A stretch of 46,677 nt of DNA. Origin: Candidatus Kuenenia hertensis. Its GTDB lineage: Bacteria; Planctomycetota; Brocadiia; Brocadiales; Brocadiaceae. How positions within the stretch are numbered: the stretch's first letter is position 1; every line of letters starts with the position of its first letter. A program made the translations under genes and the position numbers. Below the pieces are notes generated by a model. The model ran no database searches. It saw nothing but the letters and a program-made list of their open reading frames with translations, and was not told the DNA's origin. The stretch is taken from positions 1-46,677 of the forward strand of contig SOET01000034.1 in the NCBI GenBank assembly GCA_021646465.1, read 5' to 3'. Positions 9,746-46,677 of the stretch are shown piece after piece.

Positions 9746-9843
9746 ATCGTTCGAAAAGGCAAACCTTGAGCGATCATGGGACGCAAAGTAGAAGGGTCTT
9801 TTTGGTTTGAAATACAAAAAGATTGCCTTACTGCCGAAAATGC
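9746..9843 (+). promoter_or_regulatory. c-di-GMP-I (GEMM) riboswitch aptamer
   Basis: The stretch carries the conserved GEMM-I core: GGCAAACC, then GGGACGCAAAG, then GGGTCT. P1 can form from AAGGCAA (9756-9762) and TTGCCTT (9823-9829). P2 is a short stem closed by a GCGA tetraloop (9764-9779), the GNRA loop this class docks into a receptor. P3 pairs TCTTTTTG (9797-9804) with CAAAAAGA (9815-9822). The 3' segment GAAAATGC (9836-9843) is complementary to GCATTTTC (9892-9899) inside the downstream terminator, giving a switch between aptamer/antiterminator and terminator states. The controlled operon encodes a kinase, a response regulator and a GGDEF-EAL protein, so the leader probably provides c-di-GMP feedback. 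Whether ligand turns it on or off cannot be settled by eye. Confidence 0.92.
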
Positions 9844-10081: not shown

Positions 10082-11599
10082 ATGCCGCAAAAGAACGATG
10101 AAAAGAGAACCGCGGTGGATAAATTGTTTGAAGATGGTCTACACAGTCTGAACAAAGAACATCTTTCCAATCTCATTTATACAATAGAACAAGGTTCCAG
10201 ATCCGTTATCATTACCGACGTTAAGGGCTGCATTGAATATGTCAACCCTTCCTTTTCAAGAATAACCGGATATACTGCAACAGAGGTAATCGGGAAAAAT
10301 CCGTGCATCTTAAAATCCGGAGAAACTCCATCCGAACAGTACAGGCAACTGTGGGAAACCATTATTTCCGGAAAGGAATGGGAAGGTGAATTTCATAACC
10401 GGAAAAAGAATGGAGATCGTTATTGGACCTTTGCTACCATTTCTCCTATAAGAAATACGGAAGGAAATATTGCTCATTTTATTGGAATTCAGAGAGAAAT
10501 CACCGAACGTAAGCGCAAAGAAGTGCGTTTTAGTGCATTTGTCAAAAATACGGCAGATGCCCTTATTGCAATAGATGAACAGGGCATTGTGGAACTATTT
10601 AATCCTGCAGCAGAAAAGATGTTCAGGTATAAAAAAGAAGAAGTTCTTGGAAAAGACGTTAAGATGCTCATGCCGGAATCATACCGCAAAAAACACGAAG
10701 ATGGGTTAAAGAGATATTTGAGCACCGGAAAGGCCAGCGTCCTTGGTATGGGGCCTGTTGAACTGGAGGCATTACGAAAAGACGGAACAGTTTTTCCCAT
10801 AGAATTAACGATCGGGGACGCCCGACTGGATGAATATTTTACTTTTATAGGCATCATTCGTGATATTACCGAACGCAAGTGGGCGGAACAGAAATTGATA
10901 AACTCTATGGAAGAATTATCCCGTTCCAATGCGGAACTTCAGCAATTTGCCTACGTTGCATCGCACGATTTGCAGGAGCCGCTGCGTATGATTACCAGTT
11001 ATACCAAATTATTGGAGCGGCGCTATAAAGACAAACTGGATTTCAACGCAAATGAGTATATAGCGTATGCCGTGGATGGAGCAATGCGGATGCAGCAGCT
11101 CATCAATGACCTGCTTGCATATTCGCGTGTAACTTCCCGCGGCAAGGAATTTGAACCCGTTAATTGCACAGAAGTTTTAGACCGGGTTATCAAAAACCTG
11201 AAAGTTGCCATTGAAGAAAGTAACGCAATAATAACCCATGATACCTTGCCTGTGGTCATGGCAGATATGTCACAGCTTACCCAACTATTTCAAAACCTTA
11301 TTGGGAATGCCGTAAAATTCAGGGGAGCGGCGCCGCCCCGTGTACATATTTCTGCCGAACAGAAAAAAAGGGAATGGATATTCTCTGTTACTGATAATGG
11401 TATTGGAATAGATCCGCAGTATTATGACCGTATCTTTGTTGTTTTCCAGAGATTACACGGCAAAGAGGACTATCCCGGTTCCGGGATAGGGCTTTCTATC
11501 TGTAAAAAGATTGTGGAGCGGCATTCCGGCAGAATCTGGTTAAAGTCAGAACCGGGAAGCGGCGCTACATTTTATTTTTCATTACCCGTTAGAAATTAA
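10082..11599 (+). CDS. PAS-PAS sensor histidine kinase (phytochrome-like kinase core)
   Basis: This is a 505-residue cytoplasmic kinase without membrane helices. A PAS domain with PAC motif covers about 25-145 (SRITGYTATEVIGKNP), a second covers about 150-270 (FNPAAEKMFRYKKEEVLG). The dimerisation domain follows, with phospho-acceptor H295 in VASHDLQEPLRM, and then the ATPase domain with NLIGNAVKF, DNGIGIDP and GSGIGLSI. The SHDLQEPLR form is typical of kinases that pair with Rcp1-like regulators, and such a regulator is encoded 19 bases downstream. The gene is first in the c-di-GMP riboswitch operon. The signal sensed is unknown; the second PAS resembles FixL-type domains (FNPAAEKMF, MLMPE, RKDGTVFPIELTIGD), so oxygen or redox is possible. 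Confidence 0.9.
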   Translation: MPQKNDEKRTAVDKLFEDGLHSLNKEHLSNLIYTIEQGSRSVIITDVKGCIEYVNPSFSRITGYTATEVIGKNPCILKSGETPSEQYRQLWETIISGKEWEGEFHNRKKNGDRYWTFATISPIRNTEGNIAHFIGIQREITERKRKEVRFSAFVKNTADALIAIDEQGIVELFNPAAEKMFRYKKEEVLGKDVKMLMPESYRKKHEDGLKRYLSTGKASVLGMGPVELEALRKDGTVFPIELTIGDARLDEYFTFIGIIRDITERKWAEQKLINSMEELSRSNAELQQFAYVASHDLQEPLRMITSYTKLLERRYKDKLDFNANEYIAYAVDGAMRMQQLINDLLAYSRVTSRGKEFEPVNCTEVLDRVIKNLKVAIEESNAIITHDTLPVVMADMSQLTQLFQNLIGNAVKFRGAAPPRVHISAEQKKREWIFSVTDNGIGIDPQYYDRIFVVFQRLHGKEDYPGSGIGLSICKKIVERHSGRIWLKSEPGSGATFYFSLPVRN

Positions 11600-40724: not shown

Positions 40725-40747
40725 AACTACGGATGTGTAAAATGTCG

Positions 40748-40776
40748 TTGACAATAAATAAAATAGTGAGTATAGT
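40748..40776 (+). promoter_or_regulatory. Sigma70-type promoter of the first fluoride-type leader
   Basis: TTGACA (40748-40753) and TATAGT (40771-40776) are separated by exactly 17 bases. Transcription would begin around 40783, a dozen bases before the aptamer. It is the clearest promoter in the region and lies directly after the smc stop. Confidence 0.7.
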
Positions 40777-40795
40777 ATTCGTTAATGAATAATGA

Positions 40796-40843
40796 TGCGA
40801 TGGAGTTCGCTTAATCGCTGCTTATTGTGGCTAATAACTCCTG
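40796..40843 (+). promoter_or_regulatory. Fluoride (crcB-type) riboswitch, copy 1
   Basis: The segment matches the crcB-motif layout: GCG, then ATGGAGTT, then CGC, then a hairpin (GCTGC/GTGGC, 40817-40831), then TAAT and AACTCC. Stem P1 pairs GGAGTT (40802-40807) with AACTCC (40836-40841); GCG and CGC form the pseudoknot. The invariant TGAT is TAAT here, but the U and A that form the long-range reverse-Hoogsteen pair are kept. The 3' P1 strand overlaps the left arm of the terminator at 40838, giving the known ligand-stabilised antitermination. This is the most divergent of the three copies. It precedes the dynamin-like GTPase gene. Confidence 0.78.
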
Positions 40844-40874
40844 CCAAAAAATTTCCTTTGGCAGGAGTTTTTTT
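40838..40874 (+). terminator. Regulated terminator 1 of leader 1
   Basis: CTCCTGCCA (40838-40846) pairs with TGGCAGGAG (40859-40867), followed by seven T. Its left arm includes the AACTCC strand of the riboswitch, so aptamer and terminator exclude each other. Confidence 0.88.
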
Positions 40875-40883
40875 ATTTTGAGA

Positions 40884-40924
40884 AACCCCTGCCAAACGAA
40901 TGGTTTTGGCAGGGGTTTTTTTGT
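40884..40924 (+). terminator. Second, back-to-back terminator of leader 1
   Basis: AACCCCTGCCAAA (40884-40896) pairs with TTTGGCAGGGGTT (40905-40917), followed by a T-run. It does not overlap the aptamer and resembles the first terminator in sequence. It would reduce read-through further or act on a different signal. The remaining sequence to 41048 shows no other element. Confidence 0.82.
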
Positions 40925-41048
40925 TAAATTAAAGATATGTATAAGCGGCATAGATGCGTTTATTTTTGTGGAGGATGTGAAGCAGTAAGGTTGGGTTGAG
41001 GTACGAAACCCAACATTACCGTTCTTTTTGCAAAGGATGTGAAGTTTC

Positions 41049-42851
41049 ATGTTAGATGAATTCGTAGAACACAAGAAAGAAATATTGGGTGTAATTGAAA
41101 ATATAGAGACCTTATCGAAAGACGATGCAGGGGTTGTAGACGACCAACTTGCTGTGATAAGGGAACGATTGATAACAAACAGCTTTAATTTGGTGATTTT
41201 GGGTCAGTTTAAAAGAGGGAAAACGACACTTATTAACAGCCTCATTGGCAAAGAAGTCCTCCCTTCGTCGGTAGTGCCGCTCACTTCTATTGTGACGATC
41301 CTTAAATTTGGCAAAGAAATCAGGTGTACTATTTTCATGGAAGATGGAAGTGAAAAGGAAATTAGTGTGGAAAAACTTTCCATCTATATTACCGAAAAGG
41401 AGAATCCGAGGAATATACGCGGAGTGCGATGCGCGATCATTGAATATCCTTCTCACTTTCTTGAAAAGGGTATGTTGCTGGTCGATACACCGGGCGTAGG
41501 GTCTACCTTTCTGCATAACACGGAAACGACGTATGAATTTTTAGATCACCTCGATGCCGCATTGTTCCTGATGAGCGCCGATGTTCCCATCTCGCAGGTA
41601 GAAAAGGAACTCCTTGATACCATCAAAGACTCCACCCAGAAGATATTTTTTGTGTTGAACAAGATTGATAATCTGACTTCGAACGAGGTAGAGGAAATAG
41701 TTGCCTTTAATAAACAGGTATTAGAGGAGATGGGGTTTGCCGTGCATAAAATCTGGCCAATTTCTGCCAGAGAAGCACTGAAGGCGAAAATAATGAACAA
41801 TGATATTCAGCTTTCACAGAGTGGTCTTTTGGAACTGGCAGACGCACTGGGTAGTTTTCTTTCTTCAGAAAAAGGGAAGATCGTCCTGAATACAGCAATA
41901 TCCAAGACACAGCGGTTTATCTCCCGGAAATTATCTCAGATAGCTATTGAGAAGAAAACCTTGGTGGCTTCCGGTGAAGAATTGGAGGATAAGCTAAACA
42001 CCTTTCAAAAGCTGGTTGCAAACCTGAAACAGGAGAGAGATGATATTACGTATCTACTCAAGGGAGAATCTGACAAGTTGTGCCTGAAAGTGCAGAATAT
42101 GCTGGAGGTTTTAGAAGAGAAAGAGACTCCGGGAATAAAACAATGTCTAACGGATTTTTATGAGAAAAATTTTGGGCTTAGTCCAACAGTTTTTCGGGAT
42201 GAGATGCAAAAAGTTATCAAGGATGAGATTATCAGAGGATTTGATGTGTTCAGAAAGGATTCCGAGCAGACGATTTCAAGTAATATTCAGGAGACCTTTA
42301 ACCGTTTTACGAAACGTTCCAGCGACATTATCCGTGAATTTAAAACGGCTGCCGAAGTCCTCTTTGAGGTAACTATGGATCAGGCGGAATTTGCTGTGGA
42401 ACTGGCGAAAGACAATAGTTTTTATTATATGGTGCAGGAGTATACGGCGCCTACCGAAGAAGAAGTAAAGTCTGTTCTGCGTGCTTTCCTTCCAAAATCC
42501 ATGAGCAGGAAGATGGTTTTTAACGAGATGGTGGAAAGGGTATCCTCTGATGTAAGCCGGAACTGCGGCAGAATACGCTCGGATCTTACGGCAAGGATCT
42601 GCAAGACCATGAATCACTATGCGAAACAATTGAAAGACCTTGGAAGCGACCTTATAGATCAGATAGAACAGGCTATTCAAAAGGGGCAGGAGAGACGAAG
42701 GGCAGGCGATGAGTCGGTACGGATTGAGTTGGCGTTGCTGGCAGACAAGTCTAAGAAGCTGGAAGAGCACAAAGGGAAACTGAAAAATATTTGGGATTCC
42801 ATTAATCCGGTTGACGTAAAACAGGAGCAAATAAATATGGCAATGCAATAG
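41049..42851 (+). CDS. Bacterial dynamin-like GTPase
   Basis: The 600-residue protein has a dynamin-type GTPase head: G1 GQFKRGKTTLINSL (about 52-65), G2 threonine region PSSVVPLTSIVT, G3 DTPGVGS (from 146) and G4 NKID (204-207). The remaining 330 residues are helical with a conserved stalk-like region (CLKVQNMLEVLEEKE, FDVFRKDSEQTI, IREFKTAAEVLFEVTMDQAEF, DVSRNCGRIRSDL, YAKQLKDLGSDL). Such proteins bind and remodel membranes, as in envelope-stress, vesicle or phage-defence roles. No membrane helix is visible. Expression is behind a fluoride-type riboswitch and two terminators. A partner without a head is encoded next. RBS AAGGA about ten bases ahead of the ATG. Confidence 0.88.
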   Translation: MLDEFVEHKKEILGVIENIETLSKDDAGVVDDQLAVIRERLITNSFNLVILGQFKRGKTTLINSLIGKEVLPSSVVPLTSIVTILKFGKEIRCTIFMEDGSEKEISVEKLSIYITEKENPRNIRGVRCAIIEYPSHFLEKGMLLVDTPGVGSTFLHNTETTYEFLDHLDAALFLMSADVPISQVEKELLDTIKDSTQKIFFVLNKIDNLTSNEVEEIVAFNKQVLEEMGFAVHKIWPISAREALKAKIMNNDIQLSQSGLLELADALGSFLSSEKGKIVLNTAISKTQRFISRKLSQIAIEKKTLVASGEELEDKLNTFQKLVANLKQERDDITYLLKGESDKLCLKVQNMLEVLEEKETPGIKQCLTDFYEKNFGLSPTVFRDEMQKVIKDEIIRGFDVFRKDSEQTISSNIQETFNRFTKRSSDIIREFKTAAEVLFEVTMDQAEFAVELAKDNSFYYMVQEYTAPTEEEVKSVLRAFLPKSMSRKMVFNEMVERVSSDVSRNCGRIRSDLTARICKTMNHYAKQLKDLGSDLIDQIEQAIQKGQERRRAGDESVRIELALLADKSKKLEEHKGKLKNIWDSINPVDVKQEQINMAMQ

Positions 42852-42877
42852 GATTAAGATGTGGTTTTGAATAAAGA

Positions 42878-42923
42878 GGCGATGGAGTTCGCCTTATTGC
42901 TACGTGGTAGCTGATAACTCCTG
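42878..42923 (+). promoter_or_regulatory. Fluoride (crcB-type) riboswitch, copy 2
   Basis: GGCG (42878-42881) and CGCC (42890-42893) form the pseudoknot, with ATGGAGTT between. The hairpin GCTAC/GTAGC (42899-42911) has a three-base loop. TGAT (42912-42915) and AACTCC (42916-42921) complete P1 with GGAGTT (42884-42889). All consensus elements of the motif are present. No strong promoter is visible just upstream, so transcription may come through the dynamin gene, with this leader acting as an internal attenuator. Tandem terminators follow. Confidence 0.88.
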
Positions 42924-42952
42924 TTGAAGTCTTGCTTCGATAGGAGTTTTTT
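42918..42952 (+). terminator. Regulated terminator 1 of leader 2
   Basis: CTCCTGTTGAAG (42918-42929) pairs with CTTCGATAGGAG (42935-42946) apart from an internal two-base mismatch, followed by six T. The left arm shares ACTCC with the riboswitch P1 strand, so the two structures compete. Arm sequences differ from leader 1 while pairing is kept, which supports a real structure. Confidence 0.87.
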
Positions 42953-42961
42953 ATTGGGAAA

Positions 42962-43001
42962 AACCCCTTGTTGGAGCATTGGTCTTGACAAGGGGTTTTT
43001 T
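42962..43001 (+). terminator. Second terminator of leader 2
   Basis: AACCCCTTGT (42962-42971) pairs with ACAAGGGGTT (42988-42997), then T-run. Position and role mirror the second terminator of leader 1, so the double-terminator leader was probably duplicated as a unit. Confidence 0.8.
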
Positions 43002-43078
43002 GTTATGCCGCTATATTTTTAAACGGAAGTGCAAGCTAATGACATAATACCCTTGTCGAATTTTTATAGGAGGCAGAT

Positions 43079-43906
43079 ATGGAAAATGTCATCGGTATTA
43101 TTGAAAAAAGAATACGGAATGCTTCGTGGGAAGATGCGGAAAATATGTTTACCACCTTCCGCCATCTTGCCGCAACCCTGGAACAGGATAAGGGAAATAT
43201 TCTATGTTTGGTCGAGAACAAATTGGGTATGCTGTGCTTAAAGGTGCAGGAAATGGTAAAGGATTTTGAGGAAAAGGAAATATTGAGGATAAAGCAATGC
43301 CTCCAAGATTTCTTTGAAAAAAATTCAAATACCGATTCCAGTGTTTTGAGAAATGAAATGAGGAAAATTATCAGGCAGGAAATTGGCAAAGAGTTTGATG
43401 TGTTCAGAAATGATTCTGAGAGGGCGATTTTAAAGAGTATACAGGAAGCTGTCGATTATTTTCTATGGCATGCCAATAACATTATCCAGGAGTTTAAAAT
43501 AGCCGTAGAAATCCTCTTTGAAATACCTATGGGCCAATTTGAATATTCTGTGGATATATACAAGGGTAGTAATTTTTATTGTATAGCCCGGGAATATACG
43601 AAAACTTCCGGGAATAAGTTTCATTTTATTTCGCGCTACTTTCTTTCTCAACCTGCCCGTCGAAAGCTGGTTTTTCACGAAATGATAGCAGAAGCATCAT
43701 CCTGCGTCAGCAGGAATTGCGACAGGGTACTCTGTGACATTATCTCAGGGATTTGTTCAACGATTGAATATTATGCCAGTCAACTGAAAGACCTTGGGAA
43801 TCATCCTATAGTGCAAATAGGGCAAGCCATACAAGAGGGGTTAGCACGGCGAAGCGTGGAAAATGGAACTAATAAATTAGACCATCGGAGGCTTTTAACC
43901 GTGTAG
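43079..43906 (+). CDS. Dynamin-like paralogue lacking the GTPase head (stalk-only)
   Basis: The 275-residue protein aligns with about residues 310-580 of the dynamin-like GTPase encoded just upstream: LGMLCLKVQEMVKDFEEKE, EFDVFRNDSERAI, IIQEFKIAVEILFEIPMGQFEY, SCVSRNCDRVLCDI and YASQLKDLGNHPIVQIGQAIQ have direct counterparts there. No G1, G3 or G4 motif is present and there is no room for one. The ATG at 43079 has an AGGAGG site at 43069-43074. A role as assembly partner or limiter of the full-length protein is likely. It is preceded by its own riboswitch leader; a palindrome follows the stop. Confidence 0.8.
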   Translation: MENVIGIIEKRIRNASWEDAENMFTTFRHLAATLEQDKGNILCLVENKLGMLCLKVQEMVKDFEEKEILRIKQCLQDFFEKNSNTDSSVLRNEMRKIIRQEIGKEFDVFRNDSERAILKSIQEAVDYFLWHANNIIQEFKIAVEILFEIPMGQFEYSVDIYKGSNFYCIAREYTKTSGNKFHFISRYFLSQPARRKLVFHEMIAEASSCVSRNCDRVLCDIISGICSTIEYYASQLKDLGNHPIVQIGQAIQEGLARRSVENGTNKLDHRRLLTV

Positions 43907-43907
43907 C

Positions 43908-43925
43908 GGCAAGGCGCGCCTTGCC
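43908..43925. repeat. Palindromic repeat after the stalk-only gene
   Basis: GGCAAGGCGCGCCTTGCC (43908-43925) is a perfect palindrome that starts two bases after the stop codon. It shares its core with the 28-base palindrome at 20918-20945. No T-run follows. It may act as a hairpin at the 3' end of the mRNA. Confidence 0.6.
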
Positions 43926-44020
43926 ACTCACGTGAATCGTTGTCGTGAATACGTAATGTGATAGATTCCAATGCTGGTACAATGAGAAAAATGACAGGAA
44001 AATAACAAACAGGATGCATT

Positions 44021-44440
44021 ATGCTGAATAAAGATCAAAAAAGAGGGCTTACGATAGCCCTTCGCATTATGGAGGAAACTATCCAGTATATTGAACAGGT
44101 ATTCAATAACGGCGACTATAGTGGTATCCTTTATGATGTGAAATGCAGCTTAGACGAAGGGGTCACAAGAGAAATTCTTAAAAGGGCGTTGCTTATAAAA
44201 GACAAAATAAAGACTCTTTCAAAAAGATTTGATCTTGAAAATGAACTGAGAGACCCGGCAAGGGAGATTTTGGGGAAATTATCTTCAAGTTGGTGTATCC
44301 TTGAAGATGTCAAAGCAATTAAGTTGAAAAGATATGGAGCGGTGGCAGATGAGCTTGAAGACGTACTCGACCCGCACCTTAATGGAATTATTGATTTGAT
44401 TTTAGATATTGAACGTCTTTTATTAGAAAAACCAAGCTGA
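44021..44440 (+). CDS. Hypothetical helical protein
   Basis: This 139-residue protein is helix-rich and charged (KRGLTIALRIMEETIQYIEQ, LLIKDKIKTLSKRFDLENEL and IIDLILDIERLLLEKPS). There are no membrane helices or metal motifs. I do not recognise a family. It lies between the dynamin-related genes and a small membrane protein, in the same direction (23-base gap to the latter). Residues 55-85 could form a coiled coil. An accessory role to the dynamin pair is a possible guess from position only. Confidence 0.6.
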   Translation: MLNKDQKRGLTIALRIMEETIQYIEQVFNNGDYSGILYDVKCSLDEGVTREILKRALLIKDKIKTLSKRFDLENELRDPAREILGKLSSSWCILEDVKAIKLKRYGAVADELEDVLDPHLNGIIDLILDIERLLLEKPS

Positions 44441-44463
44441 AAACAAGATAAGGAGCCAATCTT

Positions 44464-44652
44464 ATGATAAGTATAAAAGATAGCGATATAAACAATCGGA
44501 GGTATGGCATGCCGATTATTGAGATCGATATCTGTGAACCTTCAGAAACGGTTGAAAAAACAGCACTGACGAGTATAGCTAGGGCAAACCTTGGTATTTT
44601 AGCCTTACTTGTTCTCGGTATATTTGCTTTCATATTAGATGTTTTTTACTAG
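44464..44652 (+). CDS. Small membrane protein
   Basis: The frame codes for 62 residues (MISIKDSDINNRRYG, then MPIIEIDIC). The last 25 residues (ANLGILALLVLGIFAFILDVFY) form one membrane helix with few residues after it. Two starts are credible: ATG at 44464 with AGGAG eight bases ahead, or ATG at 44509 with GGAGG six bases ahead. The short form has 47 residues. Position between dynamin-like genes and the third riboswitch suggests a membrane anchor or tether for the system; this is inference. Confidence 0.6.
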   Translation: MISIKDSDINNRRYGMPIIEIDICEPSETVEKTALTSIARANLGILALLVLGIFAFILDVFY

Positions 44653-44761
44653 CCCAGAGGTTGCAATGTTCTTGGCTGTTTATCTGCAGCCTCACACAGT
44701 TTTAGCACTTAATAAAAGTAAGGTGTTATTCCTGCGAAAACAGGAAAAGACGTAAAATCCA

Positions 44762-44843
44762 GGCGATGGAGTTCGCCTTATTGCTGTCGTAAGCTGATAA
44801 CTCCTGTTAAATATGTGTAAGGGTATTGTATTTAATAGAGGAG
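44762..44843 (+). promoter_or_regulatory. Fluoride (crcB-type) riboswitch, copy 3, with RBS-sequestering expression platform
   Basis: The aptamer is GGCG (44762-44765), ATGGAGTT, CGCC (44774-44777), hairpin GCT/AGC (44783-44794), TGAT (44795-44798) and AACTCC (44799-44804). It is nearly identical to copy 2 in its conserved parts. Instead of a terminator, CTCCT plus TTAAAT (44801-44812) pairs with ATTTAA (44830-44835) and AGGAG (44839-44843), and AGGAG is the ribosome binding site of the gene starting at 44852. Ligand-stabilised P1 would take up CTCC and free the site, so control is translational. This differs from the other two leaders. Confidence 0.86.
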
Positions 44844-44851
44844 ATTTTATC

Positions 44852-45115
44852 ATGATGACAAACGAATTTTTTATTTGCCCTGTTTGTGGTAATAATAAAG
44901 ACTTTAAGATTATTTTTAGCAGTTTTAAAACGATAAAACAATCGCCGGTAATTGGAATACGTACAGAAGAAAGTAATGCTTTGCCCAATCTGAGAGACAC
45001 GGATAATTATATCGAATGTTCATGGTGTTTAAAGAAATATACGCACGACGTTGCTTTAAATATCGGGAGGCGATATATGCGTGCATTAAAGAGGTTTCAA
45101 AACAAGATATCATGA
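44852..45115 (+). CDS. Small zinc-ribbon protein
   Basis: From the ATG at 44852 the product has 87 residues (MMTNEFFICPVCGNNKDF). CPVC near residue 9 and CSWC near 57 form one zinc site. The middle (IKQSPVIGIRTEESNALPNL) is not recognised. An open frame extends to 44813, but the AGGAG site at 44839-44843 fixes the ATG at 44852. Translation would be set by the third riboswitch. It is the first gene of a tightly packed operon (ATGA overlap with the next). Confidence 0.8.
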   Translation: MMTNEFFICPVCGNNKDFKIIFSSFKTIKQSPVIGIRTEESNALPNLRDTDNYIECSWCLKKYTHDVALNIGRRYMRALKRFQNKIS

Positions 45116-45498
45116 TATTCTATTGCCCAAAATGCTGGAAGGAAATAAATGAGTTCGACGGGACATGCCGTCACTGTAATGCGGATATATTGATCTATGA
45201 AAACATGGATTATGAGAAAAAATTGCTCAATGCGCTAAGGCATACAGAACCGGAAACGGTTCTGCGGGCAGTAAATATCCTTGGCAGGCTGAAAAGCGAA
45301 AAAGCGGCTGAACCTCTTATTGCACTCTTTAAAAAAACTGACAGTACCTTTTTAAAGATTGCGATTCTAAAAGCCCTCAATGAGATCGGTATTTCTGTGG
45401 CAAGGGAGTTTGTTAAGAATCGATCTGATTTGGAAACTGGTATTGTTAGGAGAACTGCGAAGGAATTAATAGACTTAAGAGTCAAATTAAATGGATAA
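45112..45498 (+). CDS. Zinc-ribbon and HEAT-repeat protein
   Basis: This 128-residue protein starts in the stop of the preceding gene (ATGA at 45112-45115). It opens with a zinc ribbon (MIFYCPKCWKEI, CRHCNADIL). From residue 42 on there are HEAT-like helical repeats (LLNALRHTEPETVLRAVNIL, AAEPLIALFKKTDSTFLKIA and LKALNEIG). Similar zinc-ribbon plus HEAT proteins serve as adaptors. No function is known. It overlaps the next gene by eight bases. Confidence 0.75.
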   Translation: MIFYCPKCWKEINEFDGTCRHCNADILIYENMDYEKKLLNALRHTEPETVLRAVNILGRLKSEKAAEPLIALFKKTDSTFLKIAILKALNEIGISVAREFVKNRSDLETGIVRRTAKELIDLRVKLNG

Positions 45499-46153
45499 AA
45501 CAAATGAAGTATGTTCACGCATTATCGGTGTCCTTTCTTCGGACAGGTGTCCTGTTTGCGCCATGTTATATCAGGATGAATTCGACAGCCTGTGCCGATG
45601 GGCCGGGAAAAGCGGAGAGGCATATAGAGATTCGGAACAAAGAATACACCTTGTTAATTCTGGGGGTTTTTGTAATTACCATTTTTGGCAATTTCAAAAA
45701 ATCAGCTCTCATTACGGAAGTGCGAATGTCTGCGTTGATTTGTTGGGAAAATTGCTAGTAATGTTAAACTCCGGTAAATACAAACGTAATTTAAATATTT
45801 TATCCGCCGAGAATACCAGGAAATGTCCTTTGTGTTATGAGCTAAAGCAAAAAGAAGCAGACTATCTTAAAGAATTGGTGGTCGTTTTGGAAGACGATGG
45901 TGTTAAAACAAAATATGTTTCAGGGTGTGGTGTTTGTATGCCACATTTTATTAAACTGATGGATTATAGCAATGATAAGTCGTTGCTGGAATTTTTATTT
46001 GATACGCAAATTACTCAGATTGCACGGATTAAATCAGACGCCGAAAGCTTTATTCGTAAGATGAATCCGTCTTCCCGGTGGGAACAGACAAAGGCTGAGA
46101 AAAAATCGTGGTTGCTGGCAATTGAAAAAATAGTGGGCAGAAACGGTGTATAA
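45491..46153 (+). CDS. Cysteine-rich protein (DUF6062-like) of unknown function
   Basis: This 220-residue protein has three cysteine/histidine groups: CPVCAMLYQDEFDSLC (about 20-35), GGFCNYHFWQF (about 59-69), and CPLCYELKQKE with GCGVCMPHF (about 117-156). The pattern resembles a family annotated as DUF6062, but I cannot verify this. The C-terminal part is helical and basic. Metal binding is very likely. It overlaps the preceding gene by eight bases and ends 16 bases before the ATPase start, so it belongs to the same operon. Confidence 0.7.
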   Translation: MDKTNEVCSRIIGVLSSDRCPVCAMLYQDEFDSLCRWAGKSGEAYRDSEQRIHLVNSGGFCNYHFWQFQKISSHYGSANVCVDLLGKLLVMLNSGKYKRNLNILSAENTRKCPLCYELKQKEADYLKELVVVLEDDGVKTKYVSGCGVCMPHFIKLMDYSNDKSLLEFLFDTQITQIARIKSDAESFIRKMNPSSRWEQTKAEKKSWLLAIEKIVGRNGV

Positions 46154-46169
46154 ATGGGGAATAAATGAC

Positions 46170-46631
46170 ATGTTTGCCAGAGAAGAAGAACTCCGGTTAA
46201 TAAAAAGTGTAATGGATTGTGGGAAGAATATCATTATTTATGGAGAGGAAGGAACAGGGAAAAGCGCCGTTATTCATGAAATAATAAGCCGGAGGAAGTC
46301 TGGAAAGGTGCTTTATTCACACTGCAGTAAGACATTAAAGGAATCATTAATAAACCCTATTCTCTTTTATAGTAACGAGGCCAAAAAAATAAATAACAAG
46401 AACATCCCGATGCTGAGAAAAATATTCTTTGCCATGCTTGATGAGATAGCGCCGGAATATATCATTTTTGATCATGTAGAATTGGTTAAACCAAAACTCT
46501 ATTCTTTCTTCCTGTATTTAATGGACAAAAAAATTCCTCTGATAATTATAAGCCGTGGTATAAAGAAAAAAGATATTGATCATTTACGTATGGTCTTGTT
46601 TGATTTTGAAAAGATGGAAATGACTAACTGA
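46170..46631 (+). pseudogene. AAA/STAND-type ATPase, 3' end cut off by the insertion sequence
   Basis: From the ATG at 46170 (GGGGA ribosome binding sequence nine bases ahead), 153 residues remain. Walker A GEEGTGKSA (about 26-34) and a Walker B-like IIFDHVE (about 108-114) are intact. The stop codon TGA is part of the insertion-sequence end, because the TG at 46629 begins it. The original gene was longer. An upstream GTG at 46146 is possible but less likely. It is the last gene of the riboswitch-3 operon and probably the energy-using part of it. Confidence 0.72.
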
Positions 46632-46677
46632 TAAGTGCCAGGACATCGTGGACACGAAAATGTGCCAAGACATCGTG
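46629..46677. mobile_element. Insertion-sequence terminus (right window edge)
   Basis: This end begins with TGATAAG and is the exact inverted copy of the left window edge (positions 54 down to 6). It contains the two 20-base repeat units with a single difference (CCAGG in the first, CCAAG in the second). The element body lies outside the window on the right. Both window edges being the same element suggests that the sequence was broken at repeated insertion sequences during assembly. Confidence 0.75.

Follow-up and report, generated by a model that had tools for sequence, protein, structure and literature searches.

We report that three fluoride riboswitches almost certainly gate, in series, a locus centered on a dynamin-like gene in the anammox planctomycete Candidatus Kuenenia hertensis. 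The locus lies near the end of a 46,677-nucleotide (nt) contig (SOET01000034.1, assembly GCA_021646465.1), hereafter the window. Fluoride control of the dynamin gene is the best reading of this arrangement because the three RNAs match the Rfam covariance model of the crcB/fluoride aptamer (RF01734), because the host family has no CrcB, and because the link between aptamer and dynamin recurs, both in every testable genome of the family and in two more distant lineages. Overall, we think it probable that these loci form an anammox fluoride-stress regulon whose core product, a dynamin of the bacterial dynamin-like protein (BDLP) type, protects membranes. The RNA part of this reading is solid, and the role of the protein is inferred.

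Three fluoride aptamers in a dynamin locus

An earlier note on this DNA had described three leaders as crcB/fluoride aptamers with a pseudoknot, the first followed by a dynamin-like GTPase and the second by a GTPase-less paralogue. Covariance and profile searches bear this out for all five elements:

40787-40850, + strand: fluoride riboswitch aptamer 1, leader of the dynamin gene (RF01734 32.9 bits, E 4.3e-7 genome-wide)
41049-42851, + strand: DYN, a BDLP-type dynamin-like GTPase of 600 amino acids (aa) (Pfam Dynamin_N E 2.6e-28; 2j68 profile E 4.9e-41; alignments)
42869-42930, + strand: fluoride riboswitch aptamer 2, between DYN and DYN2 (RF01734 40.0 bits)
43079-43906, + strand: DYN2, a GTPase-less paralogue of the DYN stalk/tip region (residues 300-555; 45% identity, E 8.7e-66)
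44753-44813, + strand: fluoride riboswitch aptamer 3 (RF01734 39.5 bits)

Aptamers 2 and 3 exceed the RF01734 gathering score of 34 bits, and aptamer 1 lies slightly under it, not far below threshold. In the whole 4.17-Mb genome these three are the sole good matches, the fourth-ranked reaching only E 0.05, and they far exceed chance level. The P1 loop (GCGATG), the pseudoknot (GGAGTT/AACTCC), the T(G/A)AT joint, and the final T are conserved in all three, and these include the nucleotides of the ligand shell. The joint reads TGAT, with TAAT in the first leader, just as the note had read it. The note had also called three aptamers within about 4 kb rare; such a locus is not unique, as the relatives G008, G012, and G023 (genomes carry G numbers) each have three aptamers at one locus, and G019 has three across two contigs.

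The GTPase motifs of DYN are intact (G1 GQFKRGKT, G3 DTPG, G4 NKID), and alignments show GQFKRGK(T/S), DTPG, and (N/A)K.D retained across family members. No GTPase domain was found in DYN2 by Pfam search. When PADLOC and NCBIfam were searched for a named function, they returned nothing past similarity to DynA, LeoA, and small GTPases. Matches at DYN residues 132-273 to a widespread GTPase of ∼585 aa, which is presumably TypA/BipA-like, occur in nearly every genome and were rated as background.

The idea that these riboswitches do not serve the usual fluoride channel agrees with the gene content of the host. No CrcB gene above the cut-off was found in the window genome, nor was CrcB found in any of 33 genomes sampled from its family. 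The one clear CLC gene of the window genome (609 aa) lies away from the locus and has no aptamer. In this genome, no exporter gene of either kind (CrcB/Fluc or CLC-F) stands behind a riboswitch, as it would in a fluoride exporter operon.

The aptamer and the dynamin occur together

Near relatives of the host are Candidatus Brocadia and Loosdrechtia, which makes it an anammox planctomycete. In the 33 family genomes, dynamin and aptamer are jointly present in 23 and jointly absent in 10 (Fisher p 1e-8, uncorrected for descent). The aptamer lies 5′ of the dynamin gene, directly or with a single 66-aa frame between them, in 22 of 22 testable genomes; G006, whose dynamin locus is cut by a contig edge, was left out. 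In each of ten relatives retrieved by dynamin sequence, one aptamer or more lies in the stretch that holds the dynamin. Because both states, pair present and pair absent, are found inside the same three genera (g6, g10, and g11), aptamer and dynamin were gained or lost together more than once. The locus sits downstream of smc in the window and several relatives, and where the pair is missing, none of the motifs searched for, of aptamer or of terminator, turned up in the stretch beside smc.

The pattern extends further. In another family of the order, G057 has both the aptamer and a dynamin (61% identity), and G056 has the aptamer with a broken dynamin. Three order-level genomes (G041, G058, and G038) encode a dynamin of 59-62% identity without an aptamer, and since terminator T1, described below, remains ahead of the gene, the aptamer seems to have been lost. 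Farther away, G046 has an aptamer ahead of a dynamin of 28% identity, and G261, from another family, has an aptamer, an antiporter, and a dynamin (38%, GTPase part; the contig ends there). G191, with its dynamin at a contig start, was left out of this judgement. Aptamers elsewhere in the phylum (392 genomes) lie mostly ahead of CrcB, CLC, or antiporters, matching the expectation from the literature. The search of other genomes that the earlier note had proposed has returned the arrangement from all testable family members and from two more distant lineages. Judging from these comparisons of sequence, the aptamer-dynamin link is ancient and conserved.

Some further loci deserve mention. The dynamin clusters of G108 and G032 were set aside as other families; in G108, a distant planctomycete, five dynamin-related genes stand in a row (L194:2838-11980, + strand), and no fluoride link was seen. 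The dynamin gene of G024 is spread over three frames (L085:7853-10245, − strand), which may reflect decay or sequencing errors, and aptamer 2 of that genome precedes a 236-aa rubredoxin/metallo-hydrolase-like protein. In G006, at L068:1327-3202 (+ strand), the gene behind a fluoride aptamer encodes a 533-aa protein that resembles D-3-phosphoglycerate dehydrogenase.

Expression platforms and a proposed relay between two terminators

The earlier note was right about the aptamers and the genes downstream of them and overlooked the promoter and the expression platforms, which are as follows:

40748-40776, + strand: sigma-70-type promoter of aptamer 1 (TTGACA, 17 nt, TATAGT; 11 of 12 consensus matches)
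40836-40876, + strand: terminator T1 of aptamer 1, with the pseudoknot strand AACTCC as its 5′ arm
40884-40922, + strand: terminator T2 of aptamer 1, with a 5′ arm at 40884-40899 that complements the 3′ arm of T1 (40854-40869)
42916-42952, + strand: terminator T1 of aptamer 2
42962-43001, + strand: terminator T2 of aptamer 2
44801-44843, + strand: predicted hairpin of the pseudoknot strand CTCCT with the Shine-Dalgarno sequence GAGGAG of the next gene (folded with and without the pseudoknot strand)

The promoter, a consensus match only, is the best of its region and lies 10 bases upstream of aptamer 1. Each platform overlaps the pseudoknot strand, as T1 for aptamers 1 and 2 and as a predicted ribosome-binding site (RBS) hairpin for aptamer 3. 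Sub-threshold Rfam matches at 40747-41026 (ncr1175, rli38, and others) were discarded, being mostly just the two terminators. By pattern, T1 is present in 38 of 41 family aptamers and is followed by T2 in 33 of those 38, with T2 starting 9-20 bases beyond T1. By one simple test, two terminators were found in 0 of 35 leaders of other, non-anammox planctomycetes.

Aptamers 1 and 2 would act on transcription. When fluoride is absent, the strand AACTCC would form the 5′ arm of T1. When fluoride is present, the pseudoknot would retain AACTCC and so block T1. That would leave the T1 3′ arm, which is available only if T1 has not formed, to pair with the T2 5′ arm and so block the second terminator too. 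In effect, a single aptamer would open two terminators by a relay, a mechanism that the arms themselves make probable. Between 9 and 15 pairs are possible between the T1 3′ arm and the T2 5′ arm, and the mean energy of this duplex is −16.9 kcal/mol, compared with −5.2 for shuffled arms. In the 18 arm sets that are distinct and gap-free, 90.5% of the helix pairs are standard, and the covariation score was reached by 0 of 500 shuffles, beats every slid register, and falls between the values of T1 and T2. The T2 5′ arm follows the changes of the T1 3′ arm, as seen in the window genome (TTTGGCAGG/CCTGCCAAA) and in G019 (TTCAATAGG/CCTGTTGAA). Finally, the relay helix is predicted in 33 of 33 nascent RNAs when the pseudoknot strand is blocked and the T2 3′ arm has yet to be made.

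Several observations weigh against a relay. A single duplication may lie behind the likeness of T1 and T2, and this alone would make the T1 3′ and T2 5′ arms complementary. Independent arm changes are few, and arms paired across genomes are nearly as stable as true pairs (−15.7 vs. −16.9). About half of the leaders are predicted to form the relay helix also without the pseudoknot, once the T2 5′ arm is out. In the full-length RNA, T2 is predicted to be more stable on average than the relay helix (−21.6 vs. −18.7), so that a relay would have to work kinetically. The possible duplication and the preference of the finished RNA for T2 would also suit a simpler arrangement, in which T2 is an ordinary back-up terminator that ignores fluoride and no relay exists. 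We regard this as a serious but not the favored possibility. If T2 were constitutive, its place between switch and gene would keep the ON state from being reached. Most leaders with T1 nevertheless keep T2, and its 5′ arm changes in step with the T1 3′ arm, as in the window genome and G019. Neither tandem nor second terminators are mentioned in the main text of a survey from 2026 that covers 1901 fluoride riboswitches (PMC13273304).

Aptamer 3 is built differently, as no terminator was found behind it. Without fluoride, its pseudoknot strand would mask the Shine-Dalgarno sequence ahead of the zinc-ribbon gene; in predicted folds, blocking that strand releases the Shine-Dalgarno sequence from CTCCT, although weaker pairing may still take up the Shine-Dalgarno sequence. 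RBS hairpins are predicted in three leaders, namely, window aptamer 3 and leaders of G002 and G012. On the strength of these models, aptamer 3 quite likely acts on translation. In G012, two fluoride aptamers ∼62 bases apart, one terminator-type and one RBS-hairpin-type, lie ahead of DYN2 (L074:8463-8649, − strand), and fluoride may be needed there at two levels.

Other genes of the locus and of the regulon

The remaining genes of the window locus are:

44021-44440, + strand: 139-aa protein with no family assigned, present in six regulon loci
44464-44652, + strand: 62-aa frame resembling the N-terminus of formate/nitrite transporters (FNT; 41-46% identity to FNT proteins of ∼300 aa, PF01226)
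44852-45115, + strand: zinc-ribbon protein, 87 aa (by sequence; homologues in seven regulon loci)
45115-45498, + strand: zinc ribbon and HEAT repeat protein (Pfam HEAT_2 E 2.9e-8; in 12 aptamer-bearing genomes)
45491-46153, + strand: DUF6062 protein (Pfam E 5.1e-16)
46167-46631, + strand: P-loop ATPase, shortened at the contig end (Pfam ATPase_2 E 3.7e-8; 231-243 aa in relatives)

The last four make up the zinc-ribbon/ATPase operon that had been noted behind aptamer 3. The 62-aa frame is probably the relic of an FNT gene that is intact in relatives. At 46620-46677 the ATPase gene ends early and a short repeat (CAGGACATCGTG / CAAGACATCGTG) occupies the contig end, as if a mobile element started there. 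Elsewhere in the window, a c-di-GMP-I riboswitch (9748-9838, + strand, 56.2 bits) lies upstream of an open reading frame at 10082-11599.

Counted by genome, aptamer-led loci contain dynamin in 24 cases, the HEAT/zinc-ribbon protein in 12, and the 66-aa frame in 11. Formate/nitrite transporters, the zinc-ribbon protein, and a P-II protein occur in seven each, the 139-aa protein in six, DYN2 in five, the ATPase in four, and an antiporter and an MFS protein in two each. The 66-aa frame (MEKIIGIKDLQDAGLLGV...) is conserved between aptamer and dynamin at L080:8120-8320 (+ strand) and in 10 other genomes; it has no Pfam or NCBIfam match, and none was seen in the genus of the window. FNT genes, often paired, occur with a P-II protein in the fluoride regulon of L063, L069, L074, L075, and L080, in hosts without CrcB. 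These channels are a possible route for fluoride or hydrogen fluoride (HF).

Discussion

The dynamin is the constant member of the regulon, is usually its first gene, and is present or absent along with the switch. Such behavior points to a fluoride-response protein rather than to a housekeeping GTPase whose dose is adjusted. In the mechanism that we propose, entry of HF would damage or de-energize membranes, and the dynamin would assemble there and reseal or remodel them. The Nostoc BDLP curves lipid bilayers through its paddle (PMC2862293), and NaF made Pseudomonas putida cells leaky and propidium-permeable (PMC13104614). The earlier note had suggested a fluoride-responsive membrane maintenance system. 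Fluoride control of the dynamin is now supported, and we infer the membrane role from the protein family and from the P. putida result. The Na+/H+ antiporter and the formate/nitrite channels found elsewhere would help to restore pH and anion balance. Since one or the other belongs to the regulon of some relatives, transporters do have a part in the wider response. To this function, with the dynamin acting on membranes and such partners helping in other genomes, we give not quite even weight.

Other observations count against this overall picture. Regulon genes other than dynamin differ between genomes, and the three order-level genomes noted above have the dynamin without the aptamer. The AlphaFold model of DYN, made with eight near relatives, has long helices flanking residues 440-486 and is of such low confidence (pLDDT 48) that it was excluded from fold searches. 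Aptamer 1, with its TAAT joint and a U.U mismatch closing P1, falls under the Rfam cut-off, as do some close relatives.

One could imagine that the dynamin is a passenger, merely sharing transcripts with the ion transporters that the switches serve, with FNT channels as the fluoride or HF route alongside the antiporter. Nitrous acid (HNO2) and HF are similar in acidity, the family lacks CrcB, and several regulon loci contain FNT genes. Moreover, antiporters are the second commonest genes associated with fluoride riboswitches (PMC11139923). However, dynamin alone is constant, and it is the first or sole recognized gene behind the aptamer in many genomes, namely, G003, G005, G010, G015, G026, and G046. 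The window locus contains no antiporter gene and retains only the 62-aa FNT relic, all of which makes a passenger role unlikely.

It is rather improbable that the switch serves dose compensation, whereby fluoride complexes (GDP-AlFx/BeFx) inhibit the dynamin GTPase and cells respond by making more of it. The same has been proposed for enolase and pyrophosphatase, which are known riboswitch-controlled targets (PMC11139923), and GDP with aluminium fluoride traps dimers of dynamin-family GTPases such as GBP1 (PMC2862293). However, the dynamin is no housekeeping gene, since the 10 family genomes that lack it are exactly those without the aptamer. A merely compensated enzyme should often occur without the switch, whereas the three order-level cases of this kind retain T1. 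Finally, degenerate aptamers, or a ligand other than fluoride, would fit the score of copy 1 and the 29.7-34.2 bits of its nearest relatives and are very improbable given that the ligand-shell and pseudoknot nucleotides are retained, that other family copies reach 56 bits, and that switch-specific platforms are conserved.

It is useful to contrast this regulon with known systems. Fluoride riboswitches of the Bacillus cereus and Thermotoga petrophila type agree with ours in aptamer sequence and pseudoknot, and their platform likewise turns the pseudoknot strand into the 5′ arm of a terminator such as T1. Here, in contrast, a dynamin-like gene is controlled, and the anammox family adds a second terminator with a complementary relay arm. 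Fluoride-riboswitch operons with Na+/H+ antiporters are also akin, in that a PF00999 antiporter is found in the regulon of G012, G033, G057, and G261; the window locus has none, and dynamin is the gene that stays constant. By profile, DYN matches the Nostoc BDLP (PDB 2j68) in the GTPase domain and in the first part of the helical stalk (profile positions 16-350), and differs in its riboswitch control and its GTPase-less stalk paralogue partner. Its profile also resembles those of B. subtilis DynA (E 2.6e-18), LeoA of LeoABC (E 1e-15), and IniA (E 1.4e-18), which are bacterial dynamins tied to membrane stress or surveillance. Their gene neighborhoods are different, and none of the papers found ties them to fluoride.

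Fluoride resistance is usually described as export, by Fluc or CLC-F, together with pH and enzyme adjustments. The fluoride riboswitch class, its association with antiporters, and bacterial dynamins are already known. In the open literature, which leaves aside subscription papers and supplements, we found nothing joining fluoride riboswitches with dynamin or with anammox. What is new in the leaders is the second terminator of nearly all anammox copies, whose complementary arm suggests a relay. Fluoride-switched membrane protection may likewise be a previously undescribed kind of fluoride response. Only tentatively do we combine these elements into one account, in which anammox bacteria without Fluc would rely on dynamin-based membrane protection under a new platform, with one aptamer opening two tandem terminators by relay.

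A conserved fluoride-switched dynamin would be relevant in several ways. First, it would add membrane remodeling to the targets of the fluoride response and would assign a defined inducer to a family of bacterial dynamins. Second, the two-terminator relay, if true, would be a new route to a tight riboswitch with a single aptamer. Finally, the regulon would help to explain how anammox cells without CrcB survive fluoride, a matter of relevance to fluoride-rich wastewater.

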